Source of the DNA: Candidatus Cybelea septentrionalis
GTDB lineage: Bacteria; Vulcanimicrobiota; Vulcanimicrobiia; Vulcanimicrobiales; Vulcanimicrobiaceae
NCBI GenBank assembly: GCA_003158175.1
Contig: PMHJ01000037.1
Location: 713-64,712, forward strand
Direction of reading: 5' to 3'
DNA length: 64,000 bases
The translations under genes were made by a program, and so were the position numbers. Below are positions 14,034-46,926 of the stretch, piece after piece. A model generated the notes under the pieces. It did no database searches and was not told where the DNA came from. It saw only the letters and a program-made list of their open reading frames with translations. Numbering within the stretch: the first letter of the stretch is position 1; every line of letters begins with the position of its first letter.

Positions 14034-14102
14034 GCCAAACGATGCAGCACGGTGCGGAGGCGCGATGAACTACAAAGCGATTCCAGGATCGCGTCTATGC
14101 TA

Positions 14103-14870: not shown

Positions 14871-14882
14871 TACGGCCGGTAA

Positions 14883-15356: not shown

Positions 15357-15366
15357 GGCTGCTCTC

Positions 15367-16188: not shown

Positions 16189-16194
16189 CGGGCG

Positions 16195-17226: not shown

Positions 17227-17239
17227 ACGTCTAGGGAAC

Positions 17240-17647
17240 CTAGATGCCCGGCGTCGGAGTGGCCTTTTCCGTGATGTTGAGCGCCTTTTCCACCTGACTG
17301 GTGATGTCGACGCCTCCATAGCCGATGCCCTCCCGCGTCAGGACCAGTTTTAGCTGGCTCTGAGAAGCGATCTTGCCGGCGGCGTCGCGAATCTGAGCCG
17401 AGAGCTGGTCGGTGACCTTCGAGTATTTGCGCTCCAGCCCCAGCGCGTCGCGTTGCCTGCGAGTCGCACTCTCCCGCCGCGACGAAATCGAGCGTTCTTC
17501 GGTAAGAAGCTGGTTTTGATAGCCTTGATATTCCGGCCAGTTGCTGACGATCCGCTGCACGTCGACGAGGCCGATCGAGCTGTGCCCCGCGCAACCTGCG
17601 AGCATCGCAGCCGCGCAAATCAGAATGGCTAGCTTGTGGTTTCTCAC
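17240..17647 (-). CDS. Skp/OmpH-like periplasmic chaperone, lipoprotein
   Basis: 135 residues, GTG start coupled to the previous stop (GTGA). The N-terminus ends in the lipobox LAGC. One Skp-like module follows: VDVQRIVSNWPEYQ, a coiled-coil arm (about 45-100), then the strand LKLVLTREGIGYGGVDITSQ. The motif YGGxDITxxV recurs in both neighbouring genes. Skp trimers hold unfolded outer-membrane proteins between Sec and BAM. A lipid anchor would tether this one to a membrane, unlike soluble Skp. Confidence 0.82.
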   Translation of the reverse strand: MRNHKLAILICAAAMLAGCAGHSSIGLVDVQRIVSNWPEYQGYQNQLLTEERSISSRRESATRRQRDALGLERKYSKVTDQLSAQIRDAAGKIASQSQLKLVLTREGIGYGGVDITSQVEKALNITEKATPTPGI

Positions 17648-18954
17648 TCGTGTTGACTTTCAATGTCGCTGATGACTTGGTTGGTCATGTCGTAGCCGCC
17701 CGCCGCGGCCCAAATGTTGACGAAAACGATACTCAGGCCGCGGTCCTTCGCGATGCGCGTGGCGTCGCGCTCGATCTGCGCTACGATCTGTTGGTAGAGA
17801 TCGTCGCGCCGCTTCTGCAGCGAGTCGAGCTCTTTGGCTGCTGCACCCGTAGCGCCCACGTCGGCTCCGTGCAACGCGGCGAATTGCCGATCGAGATCGT
17901 TCTTGGTCGCATTGTAGTCGGCAATCGTCTTGCCCGTGTCGGCCGCAAACGCACCGGCGTACTTCCGCTGAATTTGAGCGATCTGCGCCTGAACCTTCGG
18001 CGAGAGGTGGGCGGCCGGTGCTACCGGCGCGAGGCTGCGGAGCTGCGTGCCCACTTCGTCGCGTCGTTCCGCAAGCTTCGACCTCGTTTGGGCCGAAATC
18101 GCGCCCACTTGCGATCGTATCGCATCGCCCGTCTCGCGATCCAACTGCGCCCGGTATGTCTTCAACGTCGCTGCATCGGCGCTGCGCAGGGCGCCGATCT
18201 GCGCGCTTTCCTTGGCGTTGATGCTTGCGATATCGGATTCGGCCTTCTGGCGCGCGGCCGGGTCCATGGCAAGATTCGAGAGACGCATCTTAATCGCTAA
18301 ACGGGCCCCCGCATCTTGCTGCGTCAGGCGCAGCGTCAAGTCCGTTTCATTCTGCTGCAACTGCTCGGCCTTGGCTCGAAATTTTTGCGCCGCCTGCGTC
18401 TGCAGCTGATTGGCGATTGAGTTGGTCGCCGCATTGTCCTGCGCGACGACGCTTTGCTGGTAAGCCTGTAAATCGGCGTTGGCGGCGCTCGCGGCCTGTT
18501 GCTCCTGGGCGGTTGACGCGCCGCTCATCTGCGCAGCCGCAAGCGCGCCGGCCCCCTGGATTCCGGCTGCCCTCAGCGCTGCAGCGACGGCCTGCTGTTC
18601 GCGCGACGTGTAACTACGCTGTTTTTCGGCCAAGATCTTATTCGCGCGATCTTGCGCGGCGCGCAGCTCGCGATTGAGCTCGGCAGTCTGCGCCGCGATC
18701 TGTTGCGCTCCAAGCGGCACCGCAGGAGCCGACGATTTGAGCGTTATGGCGGCGATGGCATCGTTGAGCTGCGAGAGCTGCGAATAGAGCGGATCCCGCT
18801 TAACCGCTTCGTCGATGCGAACGTAGCCGGCTCCGCGGACGGCCGCCGAATGCACGTCGACGCCGCACGCCGAAAGCGAACCGGCGGCCGCACAGAGCCC
18901 GATTGCCATTCCTAGAAGAGTTCCGGCACTATTTGGCGAGCTCGTTCTGGACAT
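17644..18954 (-). CDS. Long Skp/OmpH-like coiled-coil lipoprotein
   Basis: 436 residues, ATG start inside the 3' end of the upstream gene (26-base overlap). A hydrophobic N-terminus with lipobox LSAC gives a lipoprotein. The long Ala/Gln/Lys-rich middle (about 60-400) is predicted coiled coil, much longer than Skp tentacles. The ends look Skp-like: GYVRIDEAVKRDPLYSQLSQ at the start, and DATRIAKDRGLSIVFVNIWA plus YDMTNQVISDIE at the end. It may be an expanded chaperone with two arms, or an unrelated periplasmic spacer. The family link is moderate. Confidence 0.75.
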   Translation of the reverse strand: MSRTSSPNSAGTLLGMAIGLCAAAGSLSACGVDVHSAAVRGAGYVRIDEAVKRDPLYSQLSQLNDAIAAITLKSSAPAVPLGAQQIAAQTAELNRELRAAQDRANKILAEKQRSYTSREQQAVAAALRAAGIQGAGALAAAQMSGASTAQEQQAASAANADLQAYQQSVVAQDNAATNSIANQLQTQAAQKFRAKAEQLQQNETDLTLRLTQQDAGARLAIKMRLSNLAMDPAARQKAESDIASINAKESAQIGALRSADAATLKTYRAQLDRETGDAIRSQVGAISAQTRSKLAERRDEVGTQLRSLAPVAPAAHLSPKVQAQIAQIQRKYAGAFAADTGKTIADYNATKNDLDRQFAALHGADVGATGAAAKELDSLQKRRDDLYQQIVAQIERDATRIAKDRGLSIVFVNIWAAAGGYDMTNQVISDIESQHE

Positions 18955-19741
18955 CCGTAGTGATGTCCGTGCCTCCGTAAACGATGTCGGCGCGATCGAC
19001 GACTAAAATCAAACTCTTGCGGCGCGCGACGTCCGCCGTTGCAGCCTTCGTCTGGTCCACGAGCGGTTTGAGCAGTTGGTCCTGCTTGTCGGAGATCAGC
19101 TTGTTGTACTCTGCCAAAATTTGTTGCTTGTCGGTCGGACCTTTCGCTTGTGCCAATCTCGCCGCATAGATCTGTCGCTGCGTGGACTCGTACTGGCTCA
19201 TCTCCGCGTTGGCGGACTGGACCTTCGGGACCCCGTCGAGCGCGTTCTGGTCGACGAAGCCGATTTCGGACGGAGGCGGCGTGGCGCTCGGCGGCGCGAT
19301 TGACTGCGGCCCAGCGAAAACCGCTTCAACGTCTTTCGTGATATCCTGGCCGCCATAGATCACGATCCGTTTATCTACGACGACGGAAAGGTTCCGAGTG
19401 GCGCTGACGGCCGCGATCGCGAGCTGTTCCCGTTGAAAGATCGGTCCGGCAATCTCACGTTGCTTATCGTTGAGCTGCGTCTGAAACTGCAAGGTGATTC
19501 GCTGCTTATCCGCATCGTTACCAGCTCGCTTGACCTGCGCGTTGTACTGCGCGTCGAGTTGCGCCTTATAGGCTGCGAGCTGCCGGTTCACGCTCACGAA
19601 GACCGGCAGATTGGCAATGTCCGCCAGATCGACGAACCCAACGTCGCTGATGTCGGCCGCGATGGCACCGGGCGCCAGAGACATCGCCAATAGCGCTGCG
19701 GTCGTACAAAGTATCGTCGATCGAATCTTCACTTTAATCAT
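18929..19741 (-). CDS. Tandem-domain Skp/OmpH-like chaperone
   Basis: 270 residues, ATG start. A signal peptide ends near residue 29 (APGAIAAD). The mature protein is an internal duplication: residues about 31-143 and 158-270 each read xVGFVD/IGFVD, then a coiled-coil arm with DKQRITLQF or DKQQILAEY, then a VVDK/VVDR strand and YGGQDITKDV or YGGTDITTDV. Each half corresponds to one Skp protomer. It is the first of three Skp-like genes and lies 14 bases downstream of bamA, the normal skp position. Confidence 0.85.
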   Translation of the reverse strand: MIKVKIRSTILCTTAALLAMSLAPGAIAADISDVGFVDLADIANLPVFVSVNRQLAAYKAQLDAQYNAQVKRAGNDADKQRITLQFQTQLNDKQREIAGPIFQREQLAIAAVSATRNLSVVVDKRIVIYGGQDITKDVEAVFAGPQSIAPPSATPPPSEIGFVDQNALDGVPKVQSANAEMSQYESTQRQIYAARLAQAKGPTDKQQILAEYNKLISDKQDQLLKPLVDQTKAATADVARRKSLILVVDRADIVYGGTDITTDVQNELAK

Positions 19742-19755
19742 CTCGCGTTTTCGCC

Positions 19756-22008
19756 TTAGAAGCTTTGACCAATCCCAAAGCTCGTGTGCGTACCATTAAC
19801 GCCTTTGGCAAAATCGATGCGGACGGTCCGCAGCCCAAGCTGCGGTACGTCGAACCGTATTCCGAAGCCGGCATCGCCGTACAGTGCCCAATCAGCTGGA
19901 TACCCCGTTATGCGGTTAGTGTACGGATCGAGCAGCGGGTACGCTCCTCGAATTCGATAGTCGAGCTCGTCGACGAACACGGCCAGCGTTATCCGGCGGT
20001 CGAGGGCCACCGGCTGGCGCAGTTCGATCTGCCCTAGGTACGCATTGGTCGCGTAGAAGACCTGGTTATAGCCGCGCATCTGCTGATCCGAGAACGTGAA
20101 GAGCGAACTGGGCGGAATCACTCCCGTCGAGAAGTAGCCGACGCCGTGAAAGCCGATCGTTGCGTCTCTGAGTACCGGGAAAAACCTCGCCAGATCCACC
20201 GTGCTCTGCGTGAACGAGAAGTTCGAGCCCATGGCCGGTGCCGAAAACGTCGTGCTGAGCACCGCCTTGAGCCCCTCGCGCGGATTGAAGGGATCGTCGA
20301 GCGTAATCGACTGCAGGCTCAGCCCGCTTGTTACCAAGTTATAAGGAGCGCCGGTGTTGACGTTGGCGATCGACGAAGCTGCGATGCCGAAGGACCCGCC
20401 GAAGTTTTGCTGCGAGTTGATCGGGCTCGGCGTCGGTCCGATGAAGATGTTGGGCTGATTACCTTGGAAGTAGTACGGCGACGGCACGGTCGTGTCGTAT
20501 TTGATTTTCTCGCCGGTGACCGACAGCGACAAGATCGTATAGTCGCTCAGGCGCCGTCCAACGTTCCCCGTGACTCCGTTCGCGCTCGACGTGCTGGTCG
20601 CGTAGATGTTCGAGAGCTGCTGCGACGTCGAGCTCGGGTAGAGGGTGACGGGAATGGGTATCGCAGCGTTGCTTGCGACCGAGCTTCCGCTGCCGATGAT
20701 GCTGTACACCGGGTAGTAATACGTCGAATGGTTCGTAAAGATCGAGCCGCCGGCCGTGTATTTCTCCCCCTGCGGCGTATCGCCGAGATACGGGATCGAT
20801 CCAGTAATCTGTGCGACTCCCGTTCGCGCGCCTTCCTCGAACTGAATACCGGCGGAGTCGCCGGTACCGTGCAAGTTATTATCGGTAAGACCCAGCGTCG
20901 CGTAGAGGCCGAGGCCCGTTATGCCGCCCGAATAGCCGAACCCAACCGAAGCCGAAGCCGTACGCTGTTCGGTAACGTGCCAAACGAGCGTGACGTCTTG
21001 CGGTTTCTTCGGATCGGGGCCCGGCCTGACGTCGGGCTCGACCTTAGAAAAGAAGTTGAGCGCGTTGAGACGCTGGTAATCGCGTTTGATTGCGTCGGTG
21101 TTGAGCACCATGCCGACGCGCTCGCGCAGCTCCCTGCGGATAACTTTGTCTTTAGTGCGGGTGTTGCCGGTGATTTCCACGACTGCGATCCGTGCGACGT
21201 AGATATTATATTTTACGTCGGCCGTTCCGGCCGTAAGATTGATCGACGAGGGAACGATGCCACCCTCAAAGTTACCGAGCTCGAGGTGGAACTTATCTTC
21301 GTACAACTTTTGGAGTGCCTTATAATCGGCGTCGCGCACGGCGTCGGAATAGACGCTGCCGACTTTGAGGGTGAGCGACGGAAGGATCAGCGGCGGCGGA
21401 AGCAGCGGATCGCCGCCGAGCTCGATCGCCTTTACGATCAAGCCTTCCTGGATCGTGAGCGTTAGGGCTCCGGTTTGAGAGTCCAGGTTGATGTCCTTGA
21501 CGTGGGTCGGTACCTGCCCGCCGTATCCGATGCGCTCGTAATAGTTGTTGATCTTGAGGACGTCCTGGCGGAACGTGTTCGTATTGAACACTTGGCCAAC
21601 CGAAAGATCCATGAGGGCCAGCAGGGTGTCGCTGGGGACCTTCTGGTTCCCCGTGAACACGATTTTGGAGATCACCGGATTTTCCACGACACGGTACGTA
21701 ATCGCTATGCCCCCGGGCCGGGCGCGTACCAGCGGCGGCGCGATATCCGCGAAGTAGCCCAGCGCGTTGATCCGAGCGAGGTCGTCTTGGACCGTCTTCG
21801 GGTTATAGGGCTGCCCCGGCCGCGACGCAACGACCGCCATGATCGTCTGTGTCGGAACGCGCAGGTTTCCCGTTACGTCCACCGACACGATCTTCGGCGT
21901 CGGCGCGGACAATGCCGGAGCAAGACTCAACCGAGCGACCACGACCAGAAGAAGGATGCCCACGAGCAACTTGCCTGCGCCCAAGCAGCGCCCCGGATCA
22001 AAGCTCAT
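19756..22008 (-). CDS. bamA: Outer-membrane protein assembly factor BamA
   Basis: About 750 residues from the ATG at 22008. The frame is open to 22095, but the hydrophobic signal segment (LLVGILLLVVVARLSLAPAL) follows this ATG, and a plausible promoter lies just ahead of it. POTRA repeats occupy roughly residues 40-400 (KIVSVDVTGNLRVPTQTI; ISKIVFTGNQKVPSDTLL; VVEITGNTRTKDKVIRREL). A 16-strand Omp85 barrel follows, ending GIGQSF with the terminal Phe of outer-membrane proteins. BamA is the core insertase for outer-membrane barrels. Omp85 identity is certain; BamA rather than TamA is favoured by the skp-lpxD context. Confidence 0.92.
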   Translation of the reverse strand: MSFDPGRCLGAGKLLVGILLLVVVARLSLAPALSAPTPKIVSVDVTGNLRVPTQTIMAVVASRPGQPYNPKTVQDDLARINALGYFADIAPPLVRARPGGIAITYRVVENPVISKIVFTGNQKVPSDTLLALMDLSVGQVFNTNTFRQDVLKINNYYERIGYGGQVPTHVKDINLDSQTGALTLTIQEGLIVKAIELGGDPLLPPPLILPSLTLKVGSVYSDAVRDADYKALQKLYEDKFHLELGNFEGGIVPSSINLTAGTADVKYNIYVARIAVVEITGNTRTKDKVIRRELRERVGMVLNTDAIKRDYQRLNALNFFSKVEPDVRPGPDPKKPQDVTLVWHVTEQRTASASVGFGYSGGITGLGLYATLGLTDNNLHGTGDSAGIQFEEGARTGVAQITGSIPYLGDTPQGEKYTAGGSIFTNHSTYYYPVYSIIGSGSSVASNAAIPIPVTLYPSSTSQQLSNIYATSTSSANGVTGNVGRRLSDYTILSLSVTGEKIKYDTTVPSPYYFQGNQPNIFIGPTPSPINSQQNFGGSFGIAASSIANVNTGAPYNLVTSGLSLQSITLDDPFNPREGLKAVLSTTFSAPAMGSNFSFTQSTVDLARFFPVLRDATIGFHGVGYFSTGVIPPSSLFTFSDQQMRGYNQVFYATNAYLGQIELRQPVALDRRITLAVFVDELDYRIRGAYPLLDPYTNRITGYPADWALYGDAGFGIRFDVPQLGLRTVRIDFAKGVNGTHTSFGIGQSF

Positions 22009-22024
22009 GTGAAAAAGTCGTTTC

Positions 22025-22053
22025 AATATACTTTCAGACTTAGCGGCGGTCCA
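22025..22053 (-). promoter_or_regulatory. Possible bamA promoter
   Basis: On the minus strand, TGGACC (22053-22048) and TATATT (22030-22025) are separated by 17 bases. The -10 box lies 16 bases before the bamA ATG at 22008. No clear Shine-Dalgarno follows. Box quality is moderate (4/6 and 5/6 to consensus). Confidence 0.4.
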
Positions 22054-22170
22054 TGAATTGCGCCACGAGCAAGCGAAGCGCGCACGGCTCGGCACGCCCT
22101 GTTCCGCCCGGCTTTGCCCGTGTCCTTGCTCGCGGCTGCGGCCCGAACGCTCCTTCTAATCAAAATGCCA

Positions 22171-25100
22171 TCACCAGAAATAATGCTGCAAGGTAAGGCT
22201 GAAGCCGGTATTTCCAATTAGGGGCTGGTTCGTCAGATAACTTGCGCTGTAGCCGACCGGAGAGCCGGGCAACTGCAAGAGCTTCGTGGGGCCGCTTTGG
22301 TAGAAGAAGTTCAACGACGCGGCAGTCGTGGGGCTTGACTGCACGACCAATCCGAACGATTGGATTTGAGGAAGACCGAATGTGACGGCATAGACGGCGC
22401 TAACGGCTTTGCCCAGCAGGCGCGTGGCTGTAAGCCCGACGTTGCCATAATATCCCAGCGTTAGGTTAACGCTGGAGAGTCCGAGGCCTTGTCCGAGCGT
22501 CGTTTCCACGGGAGCCAGCAGGCCTGCGGTAAACTGCGCGTTGAGGATGTTGAAGGCTTCCTGCCCCACCGTGATGTTGCTATTTTGCGGCAACGCGACG
22601 TTCGGAATCGGCGAGAGCGTTCCCAGCGGCGTTATGTTACCGGGTTGTTGGCGTGCAAGCATCGACTGGCGGCTGAACGATATCCCGCTGAAGAACCCGC
22701 CAAAAGGCGCAATTAAGCCGAGAATTTCATCCCGGCTATACCCCGCGGGGCTGGACTGCAGCCCTATTTTGAGCCCCTGGATGGGCCCCTCGACCGTGAT
22801 CGTTACTTCGGCACTGCCGTAAGGATTTCGGACCCGATCGGGATCCGGGTTAACGACGCTCGTGGTGGCGACCGCCTTCAGCGTCGGTAGCACCCCGTCG
22901 GAAGCGTTAAAGTGAACGCTTCCTTGCTGCACCCGGAACGCCCGGTCGAAGTAGGTAAGGGTCCCACCCGTCGATTGGAAGCCGCCCGCCAGCGTCGGAG
23001 CGGCGAGCGTCCCGCCGAGCCGAACGAAGCCGGCGGCCCCGATATCGAGGCCGGCGCCATAGCCGCTGCCGCGTACTCGGACGTTCTTTCCTACCGTGGC
23101 CGAAACGTCGAAGGCCAGCGGGATCTGCGCAGCCTGAGGGGAGCTCGACTGCGTCGCGGCCTTGATAAATGCGGCGAAAGGCAACGTCGCGTCGCTCAGC
23201 GTGGCGTTCCCCGAGAGCATAGCCTCCGTCGAGGGCCGTTTGACGAGGGCAAGCTTCGCATCGAGGGTGCCGCTCCCATAGGCCGGCAGGTCGAGCTGCG
23301 CTTTGCGGGCCGTCCCTTGAATCGAAAAAGAGAGCCCGCCCTGGGAGGGCTCGTCGGGAAACTCCACCTTTCCAGCCCCGTTGAGGCTGCCGTTCCCAGC
23401 CTTGGCCGAAACTCGATCGATCGAGGCCGAGGCGTGATTGAAGGAAAGGTCTGCGACGATTTGAGTGAGCGGAGTGCGCTCGAGATCGCTCACGTACGAG
23501 CCACCCGCAAGCGAGAGGCGTCCTACGACGGCCGGTTGGCGGACGGTTCCCGAAAGACCGATATGACCGTCGAGAAGCCCCTTGAGCTTCGTATTGTTCC
23601 CGAGTGCTTCGTCGAAGATGGAGGGGTCTAGGCCGACCACGTCGACGTCAAAGCTCAGAGGCGAGTTGGGTGCGGCGAAACGCAGGGGTGCCGTTGACAA
23701 AGGAAGTGCCCCCGCCAGGGTCGCCTCGCCACGCGTGAAGGTCACGCCGGCATCCGAAAGCACCAGCTCGTGTCGCCGCAAGCGTACCTCTCCAAAGAGC
23801 GAGGTGATGGGGATGCCATACGCAAGCACGCTCGTAGCGTCGAAGCCGGCCGTAAGGGTGGGCGCTCGATACGTGCCACCAACCGAGAGCGTAGACTCGA
23901 AGGATCCCGTAATCGGGACCCTCCGTCGCGACGCATCGTAGACGAGTTGTGCGAGGTGGTTCGTCTCGGCATGGACTTGCAAATCGAGTGGCTGTGCCGC
24001 GGAAAGCCCCAGCGAACCAGCGGCCGACGCGGAGAGCTCGGGTGTCGTCAGCTCGGCACGATCGATCACGACTCGCTCACCGGACGCGTGCACTGCAAGG
24101 TCGGCGGTGTCGAGGGTGAGGGGCCCCAACGTTCCGCCGATAACGCGAGCATTGCCGCGCACGTCGGTCTGCGGAAATCGGCCATGCACCGTAGCTTCTC
24201 CGGACGCTCGCCCGGTGATCGGCAGCGCCTGCATTCCAAGCGCAGGTAACCAAAGCGCGAGATCTAGGTGATCGACATTGGCTACCAGATCGAAGCGTGA
24301 ATGCTCGAGTGTGGAGAGCCAAGGCCCGGGAGGCGCCAGACCGATCGAGCCGCTTGCGTGAAGCTCGCCTTCGCTTCCTCCGACAGTTAAGGCTCCCTCG
24401 ACAAGGTTACGCGCACTCGACCAGACGGCGCGCGTGTCGCCTATCGGCAGATTCCGGTAGCGAAAACCTCGTACGTTGATATTGCCGCTCGACGTGATGC
24501 GCCCGTTGCGGGAGGCGGCCGCAATTCGAACGCCGCCCTTTCCGGCCAGGGTATCGCCCGTATCGAAAAAGTTATTGAAATCCGAAAGATCGGCGCGCGG
24601 TGCGCTGACGTCCATTGCAACGTCGCGAGGCCGGACCACGGCGCCCAAGCGCGCGGCCGTCGTGCCGACAAGCACGGATCCGTCCGATATGCTGACGCCC
24701 CGCAGATCGGCTGCGATGGCCGCGCGCCCGTCGATGAAGGGCAGACCGTTGACGTCGCCCGCCGGCACGCCGATCGTCCCAACGATCGTTGGCGAAAGGC
24801 TGCGCCCACCGATCAGCAATTGCGCGTTAAAGGAGCCGTCGGTCATGTAGTTTGGAAGACCAAAGGCGCGCAACGCGCGCGCGACCTGGGAGGCCGGCAC
24901 GTTGGCCCGCAGCGCGTAGCTCGGGGCGCCCGACAGAAGCGCTCCAATAGTGCCGTCGGCTCGAGCATACGTGCCTCCGATCTTTCCAACCATTTGCCGC
25001 AGCGCCACGGCATCGCCCGACAAGTCGACGTCTGCTTCGCCGGCGATCGGAAAGTGCGCGATGCGCGCGTTGTTGACGGTAACGCCTCCGGCAAACGCGG

Positions 25101-27417
25101 GCAGCCGCGCTCCGGCGCGCAGCACACCACTGGCATAAATCGTTCCGCCCTCGAGTGGTAATCCGATTCCGTGTAGTTGTGAGGTCCGCAGCCGGTCTGC
25201 GACGAGCGAAAGTGCGTTCGCGCTCGACGCGCCCGCGCTCTTGGATGACAACGAAAGCGTACCCGCCGCGACGACGTCACCCCCGGCCGCGCGCACGTGC
25301 GCAGAGTAAACTCGCAAGCGGTCACCTTCCACCGCCAGCGTAACGCTCGCGCGGTCTATCGGAACTCCCCGCAATGTTGCCCCGGGCATCGAAAGATTCG
25401 AGGCGACGACGACGATGCGGTTCGCTTCGACCGCTATCGCAACGGTACCGCCTAGTCTGCCATGCCCGCTAATTGCGCTGCCGAGAAAAGGTGCGAGACC
25501 CTCGAAACTTCCTCGATAATCTCCGTAGGCAACGAATCGTTGGGTCGAAAATTCGCCACGTCCGCGAAAGGTTCCCCACGGACCTGAGGCGTCGAGCAGA
25601 TTAATCGGCGCTTGCTGCATCGTCCCCGCCAGCGCCGTATCGAGGCTGGTGAACCGCACTCCGGCGATGCTGGTGTCGGCGCCGCTCACGAAGCCGCCCA
25701 AGATAATATGCTTGCCGGAGCCGCCTCCGGCGATCGCGGCGCTGATGACTCCCCCGTCGATCTTCGGCATTTGCGGCAGGTTCAAATTGGGAAACGCCGG
25801 ATACGCCGGCGCCCGCATGCGCAAACGATTCGAGAGTAGCCAAAAGGCGCTCGTGTTGCGCGGCCGGTCCAGCAGATACGACCCGTCGAGATCGCCGCGA
25901 GGGGTGTGCAGCCAAAACGGGTCGACGAGCGCGGTCCCGTCCTCATTCATTTCAAGGAGCGCCGCAACGCGATCGACACCTCGTGCCGAAGCCACGCTGC
26001 CGATAACGTGGAAAAGCAGATCGTCGCCCGTCGCGCTCGCATCGATCACGATCGGTTCCTTTCCGAGCATCTCATCGAGATAAGGCAGGCGATCCGCCGA
26101 GCCCGCAACGTGAACCGCGAGTTGCGAGCGCAGGTGCTTTCCGATATGCAGCGTGCCGCGCACGCCGAGCGCGACGCCGCCGTACGATGCGCGTAGCGGA
26201 GCCAGCGCGACGACGTTTGCGTGATAGACCACGCCCGCAGCGACTCCGTCGAACGGCAGGTTTCGATACAGGGCGTGTGGCGCATTCGCGCGCGCCACGA
26301 TCACCGGGTCGCCGATCGGTCCGGCGACCAGCACTCCGAGCGTCGTTTCTCCCGAAATCGGCTGGTCGCGCGTGAAGCCGAAGGCGTGGCGGAGGCTGGC
26401 GAGATCGCCCACGCCCCGAACCGCGAGACGCAGCTGCGCGCCGCCGGTCACCGCGCCGTTTAAATCGTAAACACCGCCTTGAATATGCAGCGGGATGCCG
26501 GCGAGCGTGGCGCGCGCACCGCTGATGAAGAATGCATTGTCGACGACATGAAGCGTTCCGGCAACATTCTCTATCGGCAGCGAGAGCACGCTAAGCGCCA
26601 GGCGTCCGCCGTCGATATCGAGACGGAGGCTGACGTGATAGGAGGGCACGACGTTGGGTTGGACGTCGAGTGCATAAAGAACCGCGTCGAAGTTTCGCGC
26701 CCCTCCGTGGAGAATGCGCACGTCGGGACTCTGCGCGAAGTAGTTGGCCAGCGCCCGGACGGGGAAGCGTGCCGCCTTCGCATGATGCATCGCGAAACCC
26801 GCGATCGCGTCGATCTTGCCGGCAACGGTAAACGGTTCGTCGCGCCGTTCCTCAAAGACGCCGCCGACGCGATATTGCGTTATTGCCGACGTGTCGATCC
26901 TGGCATCGACGCCGATGCGATTTATTTGCACGTCGCGAGCGCTCTGGTCGTAAGCCGACGGCTCGCGCAACTCGATCCCAGCTCCCCGAACTCGCAGCCG
27001 AAAACGAAGCGGAACGGGGTTGATTCGCTGGGGAGCGGATGGAACCGACGGAGCGGCTGCACCGGGCAAGGGGATATTGAAACTGCCGTCGCGCAAACGG
27101 GTGAGCGTCAGCTTGACGCCGCTAACCTCTATATCGGTTAGGCCGAAGCGGTGACTGCTGCCGGGAAGAAGATCGCGCAGCGAGTAGCCGATCGTGATGC
27201 GTCGCGCCTGCAAGAGTGGCTCTGAGCCACGCTCGACGCGAACCTCGCGGAGCGTGGCGCCGTCGCGGCCGATTTGAATCTGGGCGATGCGAACGTCGTA
27301 TCCCGCAAGCGCGGCACCCGCCTGGATGGCGACACGCAGCAACTCGTGGCGCGAAGCCGCCACGAGCCCGACGACGATCGCGGCGGCCAGCAGGCCGATT
27401 GCAAAGCGCTTGCGCAC
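22171..27417 (-). CDS. tamB: TamB/AsmA-like translocation and assembly protein
   Basis: 1,748 residues, GTG start with Shine-Dalgarno AGAGGA 4 bases upstream. A single N-terminal signal anchor (FAIGLLAAAIVVGLVAAS) is followed by ~1,400 residues of repeating beta-strands typical of the AsmA/TamB lipid-groove superfamily. The C-terminal DUF490/TamB domain holds RVRGSGYGAGLDIGAAGFV and ITVEGPIQGLKIGLQSS, and the chain ends HYFW. Such proteins form periplasm-spanning hydrophobic grooves for phospholipid transport and help TamA. At about 1,750 residues it exceeds E. coli TamB (about 1,260). It lies directly before bamA. Confidence 0.93.
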   Translation of the reverse strand: MRKRFAIGLLAAAIVVGLVAASRHELLRVAIQAGAALAGYDVRIAQIQIGRDGATLREVRVERGSEPLLQARRITIGYSLRDLLPGSSHRFGLTDIEVSGVKLTLTRLRDGSFNIPLPGAAAPSVPSAPQRINPVPLRFRLRVRGAGIELREPSAYDQSARDVQINRIGVDARIDTSAITQYRVGGVFEERRDEPFTVAGKIDAIAGFAMHHAKAARFPVRALANYFAQSPDVRILHGGARNFDAVLYALDVQPNVVPSYHVSLRLDIDGGRLALSVLSLPIENVAGTLHVVDNAFFISGARATLAGIPLHIQGGVYDLNGAVTGGAQLRLAVRGVGDLASLRHAFGFTRDQPISGETTLGVLVAGPIGDPVIVARANAPHALYRNLPFDGVAAGVVYHANVVALAPLRASYGGVALGVRGTLHIGKHLRSQLAVHVAGSADRLPYLDEMLGKEPIVIDASATGDDLLFHVIGSVASARGVDRVAALLEMNEDGTALVDPFWLHTPRGDLDGSYLLDRPRNTSAFWLLSNRLRMRAPAYPAFPNLNLPQMPKIDGGVISAAIAGGGSGKHIILGGFVSGADTSIAGVRFTSLDTALAGTMQQAPINLLDASGPWGTFRGRGEFSTQRFVAYGDYRGSFEGLAPFLGSAISGHGRLGGTVAIAVEANRIVVVASNLSMPGATLRGVPIDRASVTLAVEGDRLRVYSAHVRAAGGDVVAAGTLSLSSKSAGASSANALSLVADRLRTSQLHGIGLPLEGGTIYASGVLRAGARLPAFAGGVTVNNARIAHFPIAGEADVDLSGDAVALRQMVGKIGGTYARADGTIGALLSGAPSYALRANVPASQVARALRAFGLPNYMTDGSFNAQLLIGGRSLSPTIVGTIGVPAGDVNGLPFIDGRAAIAADLRGVSISDGSVLVGTTAARLGAVVRPRDVAMDVSAPRADLSDFNNFFDTGDTLAGKGGVRIAAASRNGRITSSGNINVRGFRYRNLPIGDTRAVWSSARNLVEGALTVGGSEGELHASGSIGLAPPGPWLSTLEHSRFDLVANVDHLDLALWLPALGMQALPITGRASGEATVHGRFPQTDVRGNARVIGGTLGPLTLDTADLAVHASGERVVIDRAELTTPELSASAAGSLGLSAAQPLDLQVHAETNHLAQLVYDASRRRVPITGSFESTLSVGGTYRAPTLTAGFDATSVLAYGIPITSLFGEVRLRRHELVLSDAGVTFTRGEATLAGALPLSTAPLRFAAPNSPLSFDVDVVGLDPSIFDEALGNNTKLKGLLDGHIGLSGTVRQPAVVGRLSLAGGSYVSDLERTPLTQIVADLSFNHASASIDRVSAKAGNGSLNGAGKVEFPDEPSQGGLSFSIQGTARKAQLDLPAYGSGTLDAKLALVKRPSTEAMLSGNATLSDATLPFAAFIKAATQSSSPQAAQIPLAFDVSATVGKNVRVRGSGYGAGLDIGAAGFVRLGGTLAAPTLAGGFQSTGGTLTYFDRAFRVQQGSVHFNASDGVLPTLKAVATTSVVNPDPDRVRNPYGSAEVTITVEGPIQGLKIGLQSSPAGYSRDEILGLIAPFGGFFSGISFSRQSMLARQQPGNITPLGTLSPIPNVALPQNSNITVGQEAFNILNAQFTAGLLAPVETTLGQGLGLSSVNLTLGYYGNVGLTATRLLGKAVSAVYAVTFGLPQIQSFGLVVQSSPTTAASLNFFYQSGPTKLLQLPGSPVGYSASYLTNQPLIGNTGFSLTLQHYFW

Positions 27418-39665: not shown

Positions 39666-40173
39666 GCCTCACGTAGCGCCGTTTGCCGGACCGCGGTGGT
39701 ACGTGGCGGCAGCGTGGCTTTCGTTAGCAATCATCGCTCAAGCCACGCTCGTGCACGCTCTTGCAATTCGCAGCGTCGTGCCGAGCTTCGTCTTGGTGGT
39801 CGTCGTCTGGTACGCAATCCGGGTGGACGCGCGCCGCGCAGCAGTCTACGGTCTGGTCGCGGGGCTCTGCGAAGACGCGCTCTCGGCCGGAACGGGAGCT
39901 GCGTGGATGATTTCGACATGCAGCAGCGCCATCGTCGCGAGTATGCTGTCGCGGGGTTTTTTTTCCGATTCCATTCCGCTAGTCAGCGCGATCACCGTGC
40001 TCGTCACGCTGTTGCGCGCACTGATTTTTTGGGCCGCGATGGCATTGGGCGGATATCCCCCGGGCCTTGGGTCGATGCATCTGCGTGAAGCGCTCTTTGA
40101 GTCTTTGCTCAACGGCGCGGTCGTCGTCGCCGCCATGCTAACCGTTCGCCGTTTCGACGCACTGCGGCGATGA
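39646..40173 (+). CDS. mreD: Cell-shape membrane protein MreD
   Basis: About 175 residues from the TTG at 39646; GTG codons further upstream in mreC are alternatives. It overlaps the mreC end by 20 bases. Five or six hydrophobic helices fill the sequence (WYVAAAWLSLAIIAQATLVH, SVVPSFVLVVVVWYAIR), with the MreD-typical GLVAGLCEDALSAGTGAAWM. MreD is an integral membrane elongasome component. The stop overlaps the mrdA start (ATGA). Confidence 0.9.
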   Translation: MSSFRSKPHVAPFAGPRWYVAAAWLSLAIIAQATLVHALAIRSVVPSFVLVVVVWYAIRVDARRAAVYGLVAGLCEDALSAGTGAAWMISTCSSAIVASMLSRGFFSDSIPLVSAITVLVTLLRALIFWAAMALGGYPPGLGSMHLREALFESLLNGAVVVAAMLTVRRFDALRR

Positions 40174-42026
40174 TGCAGCGGCGCGACTTACGGGTAACGG
40201 CGTGGCGTCTTCCAGCGTGGCGACTGACGGCCTTCGCGGCGACCGTCGTGATCGCGCTCGCCGCCCTGACAGCTCGACTCGTCCAAATACAGCTCTTTGA
40301 GGGCGGTTCGTATCGCGCGCAGGCCCTGGCAAACCAGATCCGTCTCATTCCCGTCGCCGCGCCGCGCGGAATAATTGTCGATCGCCGCGGCACCATTCTC
40401 GCGCGCAGCCGCCCTTCGTTCGTCGTTGCGCTGATTCCATCGGAGGTTAACGACCTCGAGAGCGAGCTTACGTCACTCGCGGGAATCATCCATGTGAGTA
40501 AGGCGTCGCTCACGCGCCGGTTGTTGCATCACCGGGGTATTGATTACCCGAGCTTTGCGGCGGTCGCAGCGAACGAACCCTACGGCCCGGTGGTGCTTGC
40601 AACAAATTTGCCGGTACCGACCGTGGCCCGCCTATCGGAGGTTCTCACGGACCTTCCCGGCGTCGACCTCGAAGTTCAGCCAATTCGCGATTATCCGGAA
40701 GGCGCGCTGGGTTCGCATCTGATCGGTTACGTCGGAGCGATTACTCAGGACGAGTTCGAGCGCCGCAAGTTCGAAGGATACTCGCCCAACGACGTGATCG
40801 GCAAGGACGGCCTGGAGATCACCTACGATGACTATCTGCGCGGCAGGCCCGGTGGCGAACGTGTCGTCGTCGACGCGACGGGCGCCGTCGTTTCGAACGT
40901 TAGGCTCGGAGCGAGACCCGCGGTGCCGGGCGACACGCTGATCACCAACGTCGATTGGAGGCTTCAGCGCATCGTCGAAGTGGCACTTGCGGATGGGTTG
41001 CGCGCGGCCGGGCGGGGGCACAGGCTTTCCGGCGCGGTCGTGGCGGAGGATCCTTGGACCGGCGGGATTCTCGCACTTGCAAGCTATCCAAACTACAATC
41101 CAAACGACTTCGCCGGCGATCGCTGGAAGCGGGTAAGCTTCGACCTGACCGATTCGTCGCAGCCACTTTTCGATCGCGCGATCGCCGCCGCAACTCCGAC
41201 CGGTTCCACGTTCAAAATGGTCACGGGATCCGCAGCGCTGACCGAAGGCGTCGTGAAGGTCGATCAGATCATCGACGACACCGGGGGCTGGAACTGCGGC
41301 GGTTACTACGCGCGCGACATTGCCGCGGGAGGCCTCGGAGATACGACCTTCGTTCCGGCGCTTGCGGCGTCGAGCGACGGTTATTTCTTTCGTTTGGCGT
41401 GGTGGCTGGGTAACGCCCGTTTACGTAAATATGCGCTGGCTTTCGGGCTCGACGCGAAGAGCGGGATCGACCTTCCCGGCGAGAACGAAGGGAACTGGCC
41501 GACGAACGCTTGGGAGCTCCGTGCCTTCGGGGTTCCGATGGAGCCCAGCGAAGCTTGTTTCTTGGGTATTGGGCAAGGCGCGATGCAAGCCACGCCGTTG
41601 CAGATGGTCAACATCGCCTCGGCGGTTATTAATGGAGGCACCCTCTACCGGCCGCAACTCGTTCGCGAGATACGCGATCCAAACGGCGGGCTCATCATTC
41701 GGTTCGCTCCGCGAGTCATTCGCCACGTTCCCGTCACCCCGTCGGCTCTCGGCGCGGTGCGCGAGGGAATGGCGAAGGTAACCGACCCAGGTGGAACTGC
41801 GTACGGGTTGGCGATCGACGGTTTACCGTATTCCGGTAAGACCGGGACGGTCGAAACCGCCGGAGGGAACGGTCCCAACACGACGTGGTTCGTCGCGTGG
41901 GCGCCCACGACTCACCCGCAATTCGCGCTGGCCGTCTTTGTCGATCGCAGCGGGGGCTACGGCGCCACGGTCGCGGCGCCGATCGCGCGTGAGATCTTGG
42001 TGAAGTACTTCAACAAGAAACCGTAA
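40170..42026 (+). CDS. mrdA: Penicillin-binding protein 2 (elongasome transpeptidase)
   Basis: 618 residues, ATG-ATG start. Signal anchor near 17-38, pedestal dimer domain (GIIVDRRGTILARS, YPEGALGSHLIGYVG), then the transpeptidase: active-site S346-T-F-K, SSDGYFF as the SxD-type second motif, and K557-T-G-T. This class B PBP crosslinks peptidoglycan during cell elongation together with RodA. mreB and rodA are not in the window. The gene ends convergently 10 bases from the HEAT-like gene. Confidence 0.96.
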   Translation: MMQRRDLRVTAWRLPAWRLTAFAATVVIALAALTARLVQIQLFEGGSYRAQALANQIRLIPVAAPRGIIVDRRGTILARSRPSFVVALIPSEVNDLESELTSLAGIIHVSKASLTRRLLHHRGIDYPSFAAVAANEPYGPVVLATNLPVPTVARLSEVLTDLPGVDLEVQPIRDYPEGALGSHLIGYVGAITQDEFERRKFEGYSPNDVIGKDGLEITYDDYLRGRPGGERVVVDATGAVVSNVRLGARPAVPGDTLITNVDWRLQRIVEVALADGLRAAGRGHRLSGAVVAEDPWTGGILALASYPNYNPNDFAGDRWKRVSFDLTDSSQPLFDRAIAAATPTGSTFKMVTGSAALTEGVVKVDQIIDDTGGWNCGGYYARDIAAGGLGDTTFVPALAASSDGYFFRLAWWLGNARLRKYALAFGLDAKSGIDLPGENEGNWPTNAWELRAFGVPMEPSEACFLGIGQGAMQATPLQMVNIASAVINGGTLYRPQLVREIRDPNGGLIIRFAPRVIRHVPVTPSALGAVREGMAKVTDPGGTAYGLAIDGLPYSGKTGTVETAGGNGPNTTWFVAWAPTTHPQFALAVFVDRSGGYGATVAAPIAREILVKYFNKKP

Positions 42027-42035
42027 GCGGCGCGA

Positions 42036-42401
42036 TTATGCGAGCAGCTCGAGGCTTGCCGTGATACTGTCGGCGCGGCCGCCCGGGTGTTCCGAAAGGA
42101 AACGTTCGAGCGGTGCGGTTCGTCCGGCCGTGGTTAGCGCGTGAGCTGCAGCCAAAGCAACGGGTTCGCACGGGTCGTCGAGCGCGCGCTCGAGCAAACG
42201 CAGCGAGGAGGGATCGTCGAGCGTCGCAATTGCAAAAATGAACTCGCAACGTTCGGCATTGGAAAGATTACCGAATTCGTCGATCAGCCGATCGGCATCG
42301 CTTTTGCGCCGCGGCCGAGCGAGCGCGTATGCTACCGAGACCGCTGCGATCAGAAGCACGAGAACCAGCGTAACGGCGAGCATCGGGAGCCTAGTGCCCA
42401 C
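42036..42401 (-). CDS. Membrane-anchored HEAT-like helical-repeat protein
   Basis: About 121 residues from a GTG at 42401 that shares a base with the upstream stop (TAGTG); the ATG at 42383 is an alternative. One membrane helix (MLAVTLVLVLLIAAVSVAYA) precedes two to three helical repeats of HEAT/PBS type (LDDPSSLRLLERALDDPCEP, VALAAAHALTTAGRTAPLER). Likely cytoplasmic repeats held at the inner membrane. Translational coupling to the DUF11 protein suggests they work together. Function unknown. Confidence 0.75.
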   Translation of the reverse strand: MGTRLPMLAVTLVLVLLIAAVSVAYALARPRRKSDADRLIDEFGNLSNAERCEFIFAIATLDDPSSLRLLERALDDPCEPVALAAAHALTTAGRTAPLERFLSEHPGGRADSITASLELLA

Positions 42402-45400
42402 TAGGCCATCGAGTGCAGGGAAGCGGCCATTGCCTCGAGTGCGGCATCGAGCCGCGAATCGTCGCGATGCTGCAGTGCATCGATGAACGCGTTGGAGTCG
42501 GAATCCTCGAAGCCGTCTAAGGCCTCGAGCAGCAGCGCGCGGTAATTCGCACAGGCGGACGTTTCGTCGGGCAAAAGCCGCGCGAGCGCTGCCCAAGGAA
42601 GCGCCGTGGCTAGCTGCGCCTGCGCAAATCGCTCGCCGAGATCTCGCAACTCCGTAGGATCGAAACTGCCTCGCAGCGTGAGTGCGGCGGTCGGAGCCTC
42701 CGCCGGCACGCCGCGCGCGGCACCGGCCTCCTGCACGAGGCGTTCGAGCGTGGAACGCAGCGACGGCGTTTCGACGTCGCGCGCCGTAAGAACGTAAAGC
42801 GGCAGCCGAAGCTTGATGAAAAGCCGATCGAGCTCTTCGCGAAGCAGTTCGCGCGTCGCCCCCAGCGCGCTGCAGCGGCCGTCGCCGACGCCTTCTGGAA
42901 GAAAGCCGCGCACTGCAAACAAATGCGTGATCAAGCCGCGAAAGCGCGCCTCGCGCAAGAGACGTAACGTGCGGCCGAGACGATCGGGTGTAAACGCGAC
43001 GATCGTTCCCGTCGCGTCGGTCGTCTCGAAAACCTCGGGTCGTACCTCTTCGACGTCGCCGTCGGGTGCGGCCGAGAGTTGCGCGAGGGGGTGAGAACCA
43101 TTGCTGTCTGCAACCGGAGTTGCCGGCGGGAGCTGCAGGAACCGGTCCTCCGAAAGCGCTCGGGGATGTGCGGCCAGAGCCGGCCCGAGCACTCCGTCGA
43201 GTCCGAAGGGCAAACCCGGAATGGCATTCGCGAAGATCGGCGTCGCGCGGATGCGTAGCTGCGCGGAAGCGATTTCGTCGTCGCGTTCGCCGTCGTAGCG
43301 AATATGCGCCACGTGCGCGATCGACGTGCCGGCGGGCAATGCATTGTGAACGACGCTCCGCCAGCGAATCGTCGCTTCGACGCCGGGATCGACGTCGTTG
43401 AGTACGATGCCCCGCGCACCGGAAAACGGCGGAAGCGCTCCCGAATCGCGTATCGGCACGTCGTTGACCGTCGTCGAGTTGGGAACGTAGATGAGCGATT
43501 CCGGCGCGACGATTGCGATCTGCGCGATGCGAGCCGTGCCGTCCCCACCATTGCGAACGTGCAGTAACCATTCGACGGTTTCGCCGGGATCGACGGTGTC
43601 GGCCGGTTCGCTTTGGAAGCTGCCGGTCGAGAAATCCGGCTCGGCGCTCGTGGCGATGGTCAAAGGTTCCAGCGGCACCGGCAGCATTCCGTCCGCAGTA
43701 AGCAAAGCATCGACGGTAACGGGCCAATCCTTGGCTAGTCCGCGCAATAGGCGCAATCCCAACCGGGCTCGTGCATGTGCGGCCGGAGCGAGTTCTCCGA
43801 AGAGAAGCGACGATTTCTCGCGCGTTGCTCCATCGACGCTTTCGAGCCGCGCCTCCGGCGAGATGTAGCAGCGTAAGGAGACGTTGTGCGCTGTGTCCGT
43901 GCCGATATTGGTCACGATGACGTCGACGTCGGCGAGTTGATTCGGGCGCAACACGGATTGGGCGCCAAGCTCCAGTCGCGACGTTTCACGTTCAAAGGCC
44001 GGATGAGAGTCGACGCGCCAGAGCGCGTTCGGCAGCTGAGTCTCGCCGAGCTCGCGCGTGTGCAGGCTGGCACCAATGCGCAGCTCGCGTGCGTTGGCAA
44101 ACGGTGAAGGCGCACGGGCGCGAATCGTCAGACGGCGCACTTCATATGCTTCGAGGATGCCCAGCTCGACGGTGTCGGGCGAATCGGCGGAGCGGCCCTC
44201 GAGCGCAAGCCGGCGGCCACTTTCGAAAACGGCCACGTCGTCAAGCGCCGGCTCAATATGGAGGTGGAGCACGCCGTCGTTTGCGTCGGCGCTACCGTCG
44301 TTTTCGAGCACGATGGCAGCTTCGAGCGCGCCCCCTGGAACGACGATCGCACTACCCACGCGCGTCAACCCGTTGCGCCGTGGCGAAAAGGCCGGTTTCG
44401 AACGCACTTGGATGCTGCACTCCAGGCGTCGCGACGAGGCCGGGGGGTCGTCCCAATCGAGCACTGCCGCTACACTCACCACGCTCTTATCGACGAGGGG
44501 AGAAGTGAGAACGCCGTCGACGCAGAGCGTCACGCATTGTTCTGCGTCGATCGAGCCGAGTTGGAATCGAAGCGGATCCTTGCGCCGCTCGCGGACCGGG
44601 CGCCCATCGATCGTCGCGCCGCCGCGCACGAAGAAGAGATGGTCGGGAAGCTCGAGGCGCGCGCTCACACGCTGCGCCGCGGCACTTCCGGCGTTAAATG
44701 CGGTTAGCGTAAGCCGTATGCGTTGACCCGGGCGAACGCCCTGCGCCGGGTCGGCCGAGAACGAGGTTCGATCGTCGTCGAAGCCCGGAGCCGATACTAC
44801 GGTCAGCGATGCAGGATCGAGCGAAAAGGCCGCCGTCTCTTGCGATGCCGCCTCGGCTCTCGCGACGATCTGAGTCCCGCCCGGCAAGGGCGCGTCGATC
44901 GCCACCCGGTAGACCAGCGTCGCCGATGCGCGGGCGGGAAGAGAGCGCAGGACAACCGGCGCATACGTGCGGTCGAAGGATGCGCCAAGCTCGCGCTCGA
45001 TCTCGCGCCCGTTGACCCGTGCCGACCCGGCAACGTAGGCGGTGTATTCGGGGATCGGAGAGACCACGACGACGTCGCGTGCGGTCGACTCACCCGCGTT
45101 GTGAATGCGAATCGTTACCTGTGCCTGCGAGCCGGGAACGGCGTCGCGCGCCGCCTCGATCGAGATACAGGTCAGCGCGTTTGCCAGCTGCGGTTTGCTG
45201 CGCGCAACCAACCGCACGACGTTGGAGCCGACGCACGGCAGCTCGAAGGAGGCAACCGCCGCCTGCAACTCGACCGTCGTCCCGTTTTCGATTGCTCCGG
45301 CGACGCTGTATGCGATCTCGATTCGCCGCTCTTCATCCGGAAGCACGTCTCCGACGAGAGCTCCGCCGCGCGAAAGCAGGGGGGAGTTGCCGAGTTCGTC

Positions 45401-45634
45401 GTCGAGCTCGTTGCCGTCGAGCAGGCCACTACCGACAAGATAAACCAGTCCGTCGGGAACGTTGAAGCGAATCTGGACGCCGGTTGCCGGCGCGCCGCCA
45501 TGATTGCGAAAAGTGAACGCGGCTCGCACCGTCATCCCAGGTTCCAACTCGCGCTCGGGCGAAACGACGAGCGTCCTGAGCCGCTCCGGCAACGTCGGCG
45601 CTCCCGGCGCAAAAACCTCGGAGAGAGGTCGCAT
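42401..45634 (-). CDS. Large DUF11-repeat protein without signal peptide
   Basis: 1,077 residues from the ATG at 45634; a GTG at 45685 would add 17 residues. About six Ig-like DUF11 modules run from near residue 25 to 790, each with a pattern such as PG..V....F.N.G...A..V and then a strand naming a constant (LVYLVGSGLLDGNE, TAYVAGSARVNGREI, LIYVPNSTTVNDVP). The last ~250 residues are helical (LREARFRGLITHLFAVRGFL) and unrecognised. DUF11 proteins are normally exported; this one has no signal peptide, membrane helix or sorting motif. It lies divergently from an aminotransferase gene. Confidence 0.82.
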   Translation of the reverse strand: MRPLSEVFAPGAPTLPERLRTLVVSPERELEPGMTVRAAFTFRNHGGAPATGVQIRFNVPDGLVYLVGSGLLDGNELDDELGNSPLLSRGGALVGDVLPDEERRIEIAYSVAGAIENGTTVELQAAVASFELPCVGSNVVRLVARSKPQLANALTCISIEAARDAVPGSQAQVTIRIHNAGESTARDVVVVSPIPEYTAYVAGSARVNGREIERELGASFDRTYAPVVLRSLPARASATLVYRVAIDAPLPGGTQIVARAEAASQETAAFSLDPASLTVVSAPGFDDDRTSFSADPAQGVRPGQRIRLTLTAFNAGSAAAQRVSARLELPDHLFFVRGGATIDGRPVRERRKDPLRFQLGSIDAEQCVTLCVDGVLTSPLVDKSVVSVAAVLDWDDPPASSRRLECSIQVRSKPAFSPRRNGLTRVGSAIVVPGGALEAAIVLENDGSADANDGVLHLHIEPALDDVAVFESGRRLALEGRSADSPDTVELGILEAYEVRRLTIRARAPSPFANARELRIGASLHTRELGETQLPNALWRVDSHPAFERETSRLELGAQSVLRPNQLADVDVIVTNIGTDTAHNVSLRCYISPEARLESVDGATREKSSLLFGELAPAAHARARLGLRLLRGLAKDWPVTVDALLTADGMLPVPLEPLTIATSAEPDFSTGSFQSEPADTVDPGETVEWLLHVRNGGDGTARIAQIAIVAPESLIYVPNSTTVNDVPIRDSGALPPFSGARGIVLNDVDPGVEATIRWRSVVHNALPAGTSIAHVAHIRYDGERDDEIASAQLRIRATPIFANAIPGLPFGLDGVLGPALAAHPRALSEDRFLQLPPATPVADSNGSHPLAQLSAAPDGDVEEVRPEVFETTDATGTIVAFTPDRLGRTLRLLREARFRGLITHLFAVRGFLPEGVGDGRCSALGATRELLREELDRLFIKLRLPLYVLTARDVETPSLRSTLERLVQEAGAARGVPAEAPTAALTLRGSFDPTELRDLGERFAQAQLATALPWAALARLLPDETSACANYRALLLEALDGFEDSDSNAFIDALQHRDDSRLDAALEAMAASLHSMA

Positions 45635-45729
45635 GACGCGGGGACGTTTCGCCGCCGCGCACGAGGCTCCCGCGCTCGCGTGCACGGACGTTTTCGAAGC
45701 CGACTTTTTAAGAAAGAATGAGGATTGGT

Positions 45730-46926
45730 ATGCTCGCAGTTCACGAAGACCGACTCGCCGCCGCCGTTGCGCGGTTGGGCTCGGAAAATGCCTTCGAAAT
45801 CTTAGCCCGCGCGCGTGAGCTCGAGGCCGCCGGCCGGCGAGTCGTTCACATGGAGATTGGGGAGCCCGACTTCGATACGCCCGACGGGATCAAGAAGGCA
45901 GCCGTTGACGCGCTCTACGACAACCACACGCATTACACGCCGTCGGGCGGCCTGCTGTCGTTGCGCGAATCGATCGCCGAGTACGCGAGCCGCTTTCGCA
46001 GAATCACGCCGGCGTGGAACGCGCACAATGTCGTCGTCAGCCCGGGTGCAAAGCCAATCATTTGGAATACCTTGAGCGCGCTGCTCGATCCGGGCGACGA
46101 TTTTATCTATTTCGACCCCGCGTATCCGGCCTACGCATCCTGCGCCACGTATCTGCAGGCGAACGTCCATGCCATTCCGCTTCGAGAGTCGCGCAACTGG
46201 CGGATGGATCTCGACGAGCTGGCACGCATCGTCTCGGAGAAAACCAAAGTTATCGTCATCAACTCGCCCCATAATCCAACGGGCGGCGTCCTGACCAAGA
46301 GCGACTTGGAGTTCATCGCCGAACTGGCCGAGCGCTACGATTTCCTGGTTCTCACCGACGAAATCTACAGCCGGAACTTTTACCTGGATGCCGAGTACCT
46401 GTCGATTGCATCGCTACCCGGAATGCGGGAGCGGACGATCGTCGTCGACGGTTTTTCGAAGGCCTACGCGATGACCGGCTGGCGCCTGGGTTATGCGATC
46501 TTGCCGGAGCGTCTTGCCAAGACGGTGACGCTCTTCAACAACAACACTTTTAGCTGCGTCGCGACCTTCGTGCAGATGGCCGGCATCGCCGCGCTGACCG
46601 GCCCCGACGAACCCGTGCTGCGCATGAACGAGATCTTTCGTCAGCGCCGGGATCGGCTCGTCGAAGGACTCAACGATATTTCGGGCATCTCGTGTCTGCT
46701 CCCCGAAGGCGCGTTCTATGCCTTCCCGAACGTCGCCGCGATTACGCAGGACGACCGCGCGCTGGCGAAGTTCCTTTTGGAGGAGGGCGGCGTGGCGTGC
46801 GGGGGCGGCTCGTCGTTCGGGGCCGCCGGCAAAGGCTATCTGCGCTTTTCCTACGCAGCCTCGCTCGAAGACATCGACTGGGCATTGGACTCCATCGCGA
46901 AGACAATCCCTAAGTTCAAGGAATAA
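45730..46926 (+). CDS. PLP-dependent class I/II aminotransferase
   Basis: 398 residues from the ATG at 45730, which has GAGGA at a 5-6-base spacing; an ATG at 45718 is in frame upstream. Fold type I landmarks: EIGEPDFDTPDGIKKAA, YTPSGGLLSLRESIAEY, NSPHNPTGGVL, LTDEIYSRNFY and the PLP lysine in VDGFSKAYAMTGWRLGYAI. This is the Ib-type aspartate/aromatic aminotransferase group; substrate is not certain. The 3' end overlaps the convergent trpS by 11 bases. Confidence 0.92.
   Translation: MLAVHEDRLAAAVARLGSENAFEILARARELEAAGRRVVHMEIGEPDFDTPDGIKKAAVDALYDNHTHYTPSGGLLSLRESIAEYASRFRRITPAWNAHNVVVSPGAKPIIWNTLSALLDPGDDFIYFDPAYPAYASCATYLQANVHAIPLRESRNWRMDLDELARIVSEKTKVIVINSPHNPTGGVLTKSDLEFIAELAERYDFLVLTDEIYSRNFYLDAEYLSIASLPGMRERTIVVDGFSKAYAMTGWRLGYAILPERLAKTVTLFNNNTFSCVATFVQMAGIAALTGPDEPVLRMNEIFRQRRDRLVEGLNDISGISCLLPEGAFYAFPNVAAITQDDRALAKFLLEEGGVACGGGSSFGAAGKGYLRFSYAASLEDIDWALDSIAKTIPKFKE

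Follow-up and report, generated by a model that had tools for sequence, protein, structure and literature searches.

A signal-less DUF11 protein and its TM-HEAT partner: a candidate membrane-tethered cytoplasmic module in Eremiobacterota

The locus and the architecture of the arm protein

The window, by which we mean the whole 64,000-nucleotide stretch of Candidatus Cybelea septentrionalis DNA analysed here, carries on its minus strand two coupled genes (Table 1). The upstream gene encodes a large DUF11 protein, below called the arm protein, and the downstream gene a small protein with a transmembrane (TM) helix and a HEAT-like region, the TM-HEAT partner. The coordinates of the two genes and their coupling through TAGTG are exactly those given in the first-pass annotation. 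The pair sits between the plus-strand genes of PBP2 (40170-42026) and an aminotransferase (45718-46926); the names of the neighbouring genes in the window were assigned by eye from the sequence, together with consistent tblastn synteny. Elsewhere in the window (11015-27417) a lipid A/outer-membrane assembly cluster (LpxA/B/C/D-, FabZ-, OmpH- and BamA-like genes) and, within it, a 1,748-aa TamB-like protein were recognized by eye, in keeping with an envelope of two membranes as has been described for V. alpinus.

Table 1. Features of the arm gene, the partner gene and the encoded proteins
Feature	Position	Strand	Remarks
Arm protein gene	42401..45634	-	1,077 aa; signal-less, DUF11 arms and CTD; ATG at 45634, TAG at 42403-42401
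TM-HEAT partner gene	42036..42401	-	121 aa; GTG at 42401, stop ends at 42036
TAGTG	42399..42403	-	arm stop shares one base with partner start
N-terminal tail, residues 1-22	45569..45634	-	MRPLSEVFAPGAPTLPERLRTL; predicted disordered; candidate interaction motif
Ig-like unit 1, residues ~22-150	45185..45571	-	AlphaFold; lower model confidence
Ig-like/DUF11 unit 2, residues ~155-280	44795..45172	-	Pfam and AlphaFold
Ig-like/DUF11 unit 3, residues ~288-412	44399..44773	-	Pfam and AlphaFold
Ig-like unit 4, residues ~418-542	44009..44383	-	AlphaFold
Ig-like unit 5, residues ~548-662	43649..43993	-	AlphaFold
Ig-like/DUF11 unit 6, residues ~668-796	43247..43633	-	Pfam and AlphaFold
Linker, residues 797-873	43016..43246	-	disordered, poorly conserved
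CTD, residues 874-1077	42404..43015	-	two diverged beta-alpha repeats
Partner transmembrane helix, residues ~5-27	42321..42389	-	single; then RPRRK
Partner HEAT-like region, residues ~39-121	42039..42287	-	HEAT_2 stretch 39-95

Both genes are real. Against two near relatives the dN/dS values were 0.13 and 0.16 for the arm gene, 0.23 and 0.17 for the partner gene, thus both are under purifying selection, and the full-length arm orthologues in the window's family share 55-94% identity with the window protein. The dN/dS values and this conservation rule out that the arm gene is a shadow-ORF artefact.

The Pfam DUF11 profile (PF01345) matched the arm protein in four separate stretches (79.2 bits, cut-off 24.6, E 3.8e-22), and there were also matches to DUF11-related Ig-like families. 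AlphaFold modelled six Ig-like units between residues 22 and 796, in line with the earlier estimate of about six Ig-like DUF11 modules. The model, made by AlphaFold2 with 9 sequences, had a mean pLDDT of 73, the domain blocks lying mostly between 75 and 93 and Ig unit 1 lower, and its pTM of 0.36 is as expected for a flexible chain. The N-terminal tail (residues 1-22) is among the best conserved stretches of the protein, with several positions invariant in 24/24 sequences.

The last ~250 residues of the chain had been described as helical and unrecognised. This holds for the C-terminal domain (CTD), which is unrecognised and mostly helical, whereas residues 797-873 turned out to be a disordered linker. 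Modelled alone, the CTD is a compact domain of ~200 residues (pLDDT 88.5, pTM 0.88), in which two short strands accompany the helices, and its two halves, each made up of a strand and helices, align as profiles (P 5.8e-5, probability 65%). Foldseek searches with the CTD gave no match in the PDB (best E 0.78) or among viral models (best E 1.1), Pfam contained no matching family, and a profile search of PDB sequences returned nothing significant.

Relatives encode a second signal-less family (L129, L130, L133, L134, L135, L141, L029), proteins of ~460-540 aa that contain one DUF11 domain each and whose C-terminal region closes with an LQRLFVRxR motif. Judged from a profile alignment (hhalign P 0.0015, probability 17%), this region is perhaps distantly related to the CTD. 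We saw no TM-HEAT partner beside members of this second family and no clear copy of it in the window's genome.

Absence of an export signal and comparison with known proteins

The ATG start of the arm gene is kept among the relatives, and a stop codon precedes it by 3-10 codons in four of them (L050 of G021, L051 of G025, L052 of G039 and L055 of G038), so that a hidden upstream signal peptide is impossible in these genomes. No signal peptide could be found from any start choice of the arm protein or in any orthologue, which agrees with what had been seen for the start choices in the window, and inspection of the relatives revealed no upstream start encoding one. A GTG start at 45685, which would add 17 aa, was rejected because the extension is neither conserved nor hydrophobic, and starts beyond it because they would overlap the divergent aminotransferase gene. 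The arm protein has no conserved cysteines, a point that we count in favour of a cytoplasmic location. In contrast to the arm protein, L131, an unrelated DUF11 protein encoded by a relative, begins with a plain signal peptide.

It is instructive to compare the arm protein with the proteins for which its domain is known. DUF11 was characterised in 2025 as a stalk domain that is typically extracellular and held by an isopeptide bond, and it was renamed CLIPPER, although according to the authors the Lys-Asp-Asn isopeptide bond is lacking in some DUF11 domains (PMC12617251). Known proteins with this domain serve as stalks on the cell surface (PMC12617251, PMC9210967). The arm protein shares with these stalks the Ig-like domain family (PF01345) and the tandem repeats, but it has no signal peptide, no sorting domain and no lysine that could form the Lys-Asp-Asn isopeptide bond, and it possesses an unmatched CTD and a HEAT partner. 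There are 6 lysines in 800 arm residues, none of them conserved near any first strand. The low lysine content is partly due to the G+C-rich genome; a bond-forming lysine would still be conserved. Features of fibrillar adhesins (signal peptide, adhesive domain, cell-wall or membrane sorting domain) were not detected by Pfam, NCBIfam or inspection of the start. Because the extracellular and isopeptide features are missing, we classify the arm as DUF11 by fold and not as a CLIPPER stalk.

A role of the arm protein as a surface stalk, reached by non-classical export, seems quite improbable to us. The habit of the known DUF11 proteins and the signal-bearing L131 would speak for such a role, but none of the orthologues has a signal, the isopeptide lysines are absent, and the topology of the partner as well as an arm protein fused to a TM helix (see below) indicate the cytoplasm.

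When the whole arm chain was used as a Foldseek query, the top matches were chains of the ciliary central apparatus, followed by complement, PrgB and integrins; all TM-scores were low, and the Ig fold is shared by numerous extracellular proteins as well. The ciliary proteins of the ASH/HYDIN type (PDB 9ijj, 7sqc) resemble the arm protein in having tandem Ig-like domains, which in their case are part of an intracellular scaffold, but with ~10% identity and TM-scores below 0.25 the similarity is one of fold only. The Pfam ASH profile (PF15780) matched weakly, in 2/24 members only (best E 0.019). As the top matches are intracellular proteins, we count them in favour of a cytoplasmic arm. The partner, in turn, may be compared with HEAT_2 repeat proteins (PF13646), whose profile its putative cytoplasmic part matches near the cut-off; it differs from them in that a single TM helix precedes its repeats, of which there are one to a few, and in being encoded beside DUF11-CTD genes. 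We found no paper joining DUF11 with Eremiobacterota, or DUF11 with HEAT repeats and the cytoplasm, and papers combining two of DUF11, HEAT repeat and MreB seemed from their titles to be unrelated. The first-pass annotation knew of no described system of this kind, and there was none in the libraries and papers that we searched; we therefore classify the two-gene arm/TM-HEAT module as undescribed.

The TM-HEAT partner, the pairing and its distribution

The partner had been predicted to consist of one membrane helix and helical repeats. A single TM helix was indeed found, followed by a HEAT_2-like stretch whose score (24.7 bits) is just below the Pfam cut-off (27.7). HEAT_2 was matched by Pfam in 8/8 partners tested, from several subfamilies, and the score was above the cut-off in 2 of 8 orthologues/paralogues tested (33.9 and 28.0 bits). 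Lys/Arg residues lie on the C-terminal side of the TM helix in 57/61 partners (2.7 vs 0.4), a positive-inside signal weakened by the very short N-termini, and accordingly the HEAT part should be cytoplasmic.

The two genes are inherited as a pair. Among the arm+CTD genes with enough flanking sequence in the loci in hand, 56/60 were followed directly on the 3' side by an ORF whose product has a TM helix at its N-terminus, compared with 26/150 control genes treated alike (Fisher p 8e-26; the loci share ancestry, hence 56/60 does not stand for 56 independent events). The pair noticed in the window is thus conserved in related genomes. The offset between arm and partner has a median of -3 nt, and 36 of the 56 partners overlap the arm stop. 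Four arm+CTD genes had no TM partner by the automatic criterion: in L005 the HEAT part is kept and the TM helix is missing, in L041 the TM-HEAT frame is present and a standard start codon is missing, and L042 and L025 have no TM partner at all. Evolutionary distances of the CTD and of the partner are strongly correlated (Mantel r 0.85, n=58, 0/2000 permutations), and where the pair occurs as tandem copies A and B, each copy retains its own partner type.

In some relatives the CTD and the TM-HEAT protein are fused or re-sorted. In genus g40 a single protein joins TM-HEAT to the second CTD, which comes after it in the chain (L097, L099), and in genus g19 the second CTD stands alone, with a TM gene beside most copies. 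The CTD-only genes L011, L073 and L076 have a TM partner of their own. A single case, L100, is an arm protein without CTD and without partner, which carries its own N-terminal TM helix followed by RRPRPSRR. That the arm protein and the partner are merely co-transcribed and act separately appears very doubtful to us: coupled genes need not interact in compact bacterial genomes, and a few arm genes do without a partner, but the pairing has been kept in several subfamilies, and also where genes were duplicated in tandem or fused.

The CTD profile was found in 79 of the 149 Eremiobacterota genomes searched, all belonging to families f1 and f2 of one order; it was absent from family f3 and from the other families searched among these 149 genomes of the phylum. 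Spread by plasmids received no support, the CTD being without match in 72,556 plasmid records. Neither PADLOC nor PHROG gave a match for the pair, on which ground we ruled out anti-phage defence and phage origin. The pair is missing from several genomes of the genus to which the window belongs, and it has been lost repeatedly, therefore it is not essential. In five pair-less genomes (L105-L109) relics of the first 20-46 arm codons lie between the aminotransferase and PBP2 genes; because these scraps are in the right place and on the right strand, we conclude that the pair was deleted there. Two further copies are broken and still retain the partner gene: the one in G021 (L050:5851-9085) has a frameshift before the CTD, the one in G016 (L056:7117-8311) a large internal deletion removing most arms. 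These copies reflect either decay or assembly error. The genome G025, a match to the type strain of Vulcanimicrobium alpinus, WC8-2, which is in culture (PMC9758169), carries two pairs (L051 and L090).

Genomic context and proposed mechanism

In family f1 the main locus is convergent to mreC-mreD-PBP2, and in four f2 genomes (L052, L053, L054, L055) a flagellin gene is convergent to the pair. An f2 paralogue with its TM partner (G038:C76; L144:13233-18999, L145:1-9172) adjoins GGDEF, HD and secretin genes as well as a set of genes resembling those of type IV pili or type II secretion (T2SSE twice, T2SSF, PilN). A ParA-like gene was noticed on the same contig. One could suppose from these neighbours that the pair forms a cytoplasmic platform dedicated to a single envelope machine, be it the elongasome, the type IV pilus or the flagellum: the f1 locus converges on the mre genes, the f2 pairs on flagellin, and the paralogue is located within a T2SSE/T2SSF/PilN/secretin cluster. 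We consider this unlikely. The neighbour varies by lineage, the pair is on the strand opposite to mre and flagellin, so the proximity may be a matter of position only, and the pair was lost repeatedly while mre/PBP2 stayed. A functional operon of mre/PBP2 and the pair was not accepted, given the opposite strands and the change of neighbour in f2.

Other neighbours are suggestive of signalling. Distant DUF11-CTD/TM pairs (L086, L087, L089, L090, L092, L093, L103) lie near Crp and GGDEF genes by Pfam; PriA, trigger factor, ClpP and ClpX genes were also recognized by eye near these pairs. For the g9/g20 paralogues, Pfam identified GGDEF and Crp genes nearby, and genes similar to ClpX and PriA were recognized by eye. 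In G025 a PAS-GAF-SpoIIE-HATPase gene lies 12 bp downstream of the pair. These associations, among them the one case with a GGDEF, HD and secretin set, would suit a signalling or regulatory adaptor in which the CTD/HEAT pair relays an envelope or nucleotide signal and the arm is not structural. Such a role seems improbable: neighbours of this kind are absent at the window locus and at most main loci, and no catalytic or ligand-binding domain was recognised in the arm protein or its partner. We take the neighbours as leads, and a tie of the module to envelope machines or to signalling is possible.

The best reading, which we hold to be probable, though by a modest measure, is an inner-membrane-tethered cytoplasmic module of Ig-like arms, with the CTD docking on the HEAT part and the arm and its tail binding a client. 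The single N-terminal helix would anchor the partner in the inner membrane and leave its HEAT-like part facing the cytoplasm, where the 204-residue CTD of the arm protein would dock on that part. Thanks to the flexible linker, the six Ig-like domains could reach out as a stiff arm into the cytoplasm. A putative client would be bound by this arm, chiefly by the conserved unstructured tail at its N-terminus, and would thereby be placed at the membrane. The physical docking of CTD and HEAT, the orientation of the arm and the existence of a client are what we infer from the data described above. The first-pass annotation had pictured the two proteins as an inner-membrane-associated cytoplasmic scaffold. 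The placement is supported by the positive-inside signal in 57/61 partners, by the fusion of CTD and TM-HEAT and by the TM-bearing L100; a scaffold role and a contact between the two proteins are plausible.

A bolder version of this model, which we find tempting but rather doubtful, is that Eremiobacterota have a HYDIN-reminiscent, membrane-anchored intracellular skeleton or platform of Ig-like arms, in which the CTD would be a novel docking domain and TM-HEAT its dedicated receptor, and which would have been duplicated and adapted to several envelope machines. In either case DUF11, a domain described as an extracellular stalk, is apparently used inside the cell by a whole protein family. If the CTD and the HEAT part do bind each other, they would constitute a new bacterial system for docking at the membrane, made of two parts. 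Since the carriers include the match to the cultured V. alpinus WC8-2, localisation, binding and function are directly testable.
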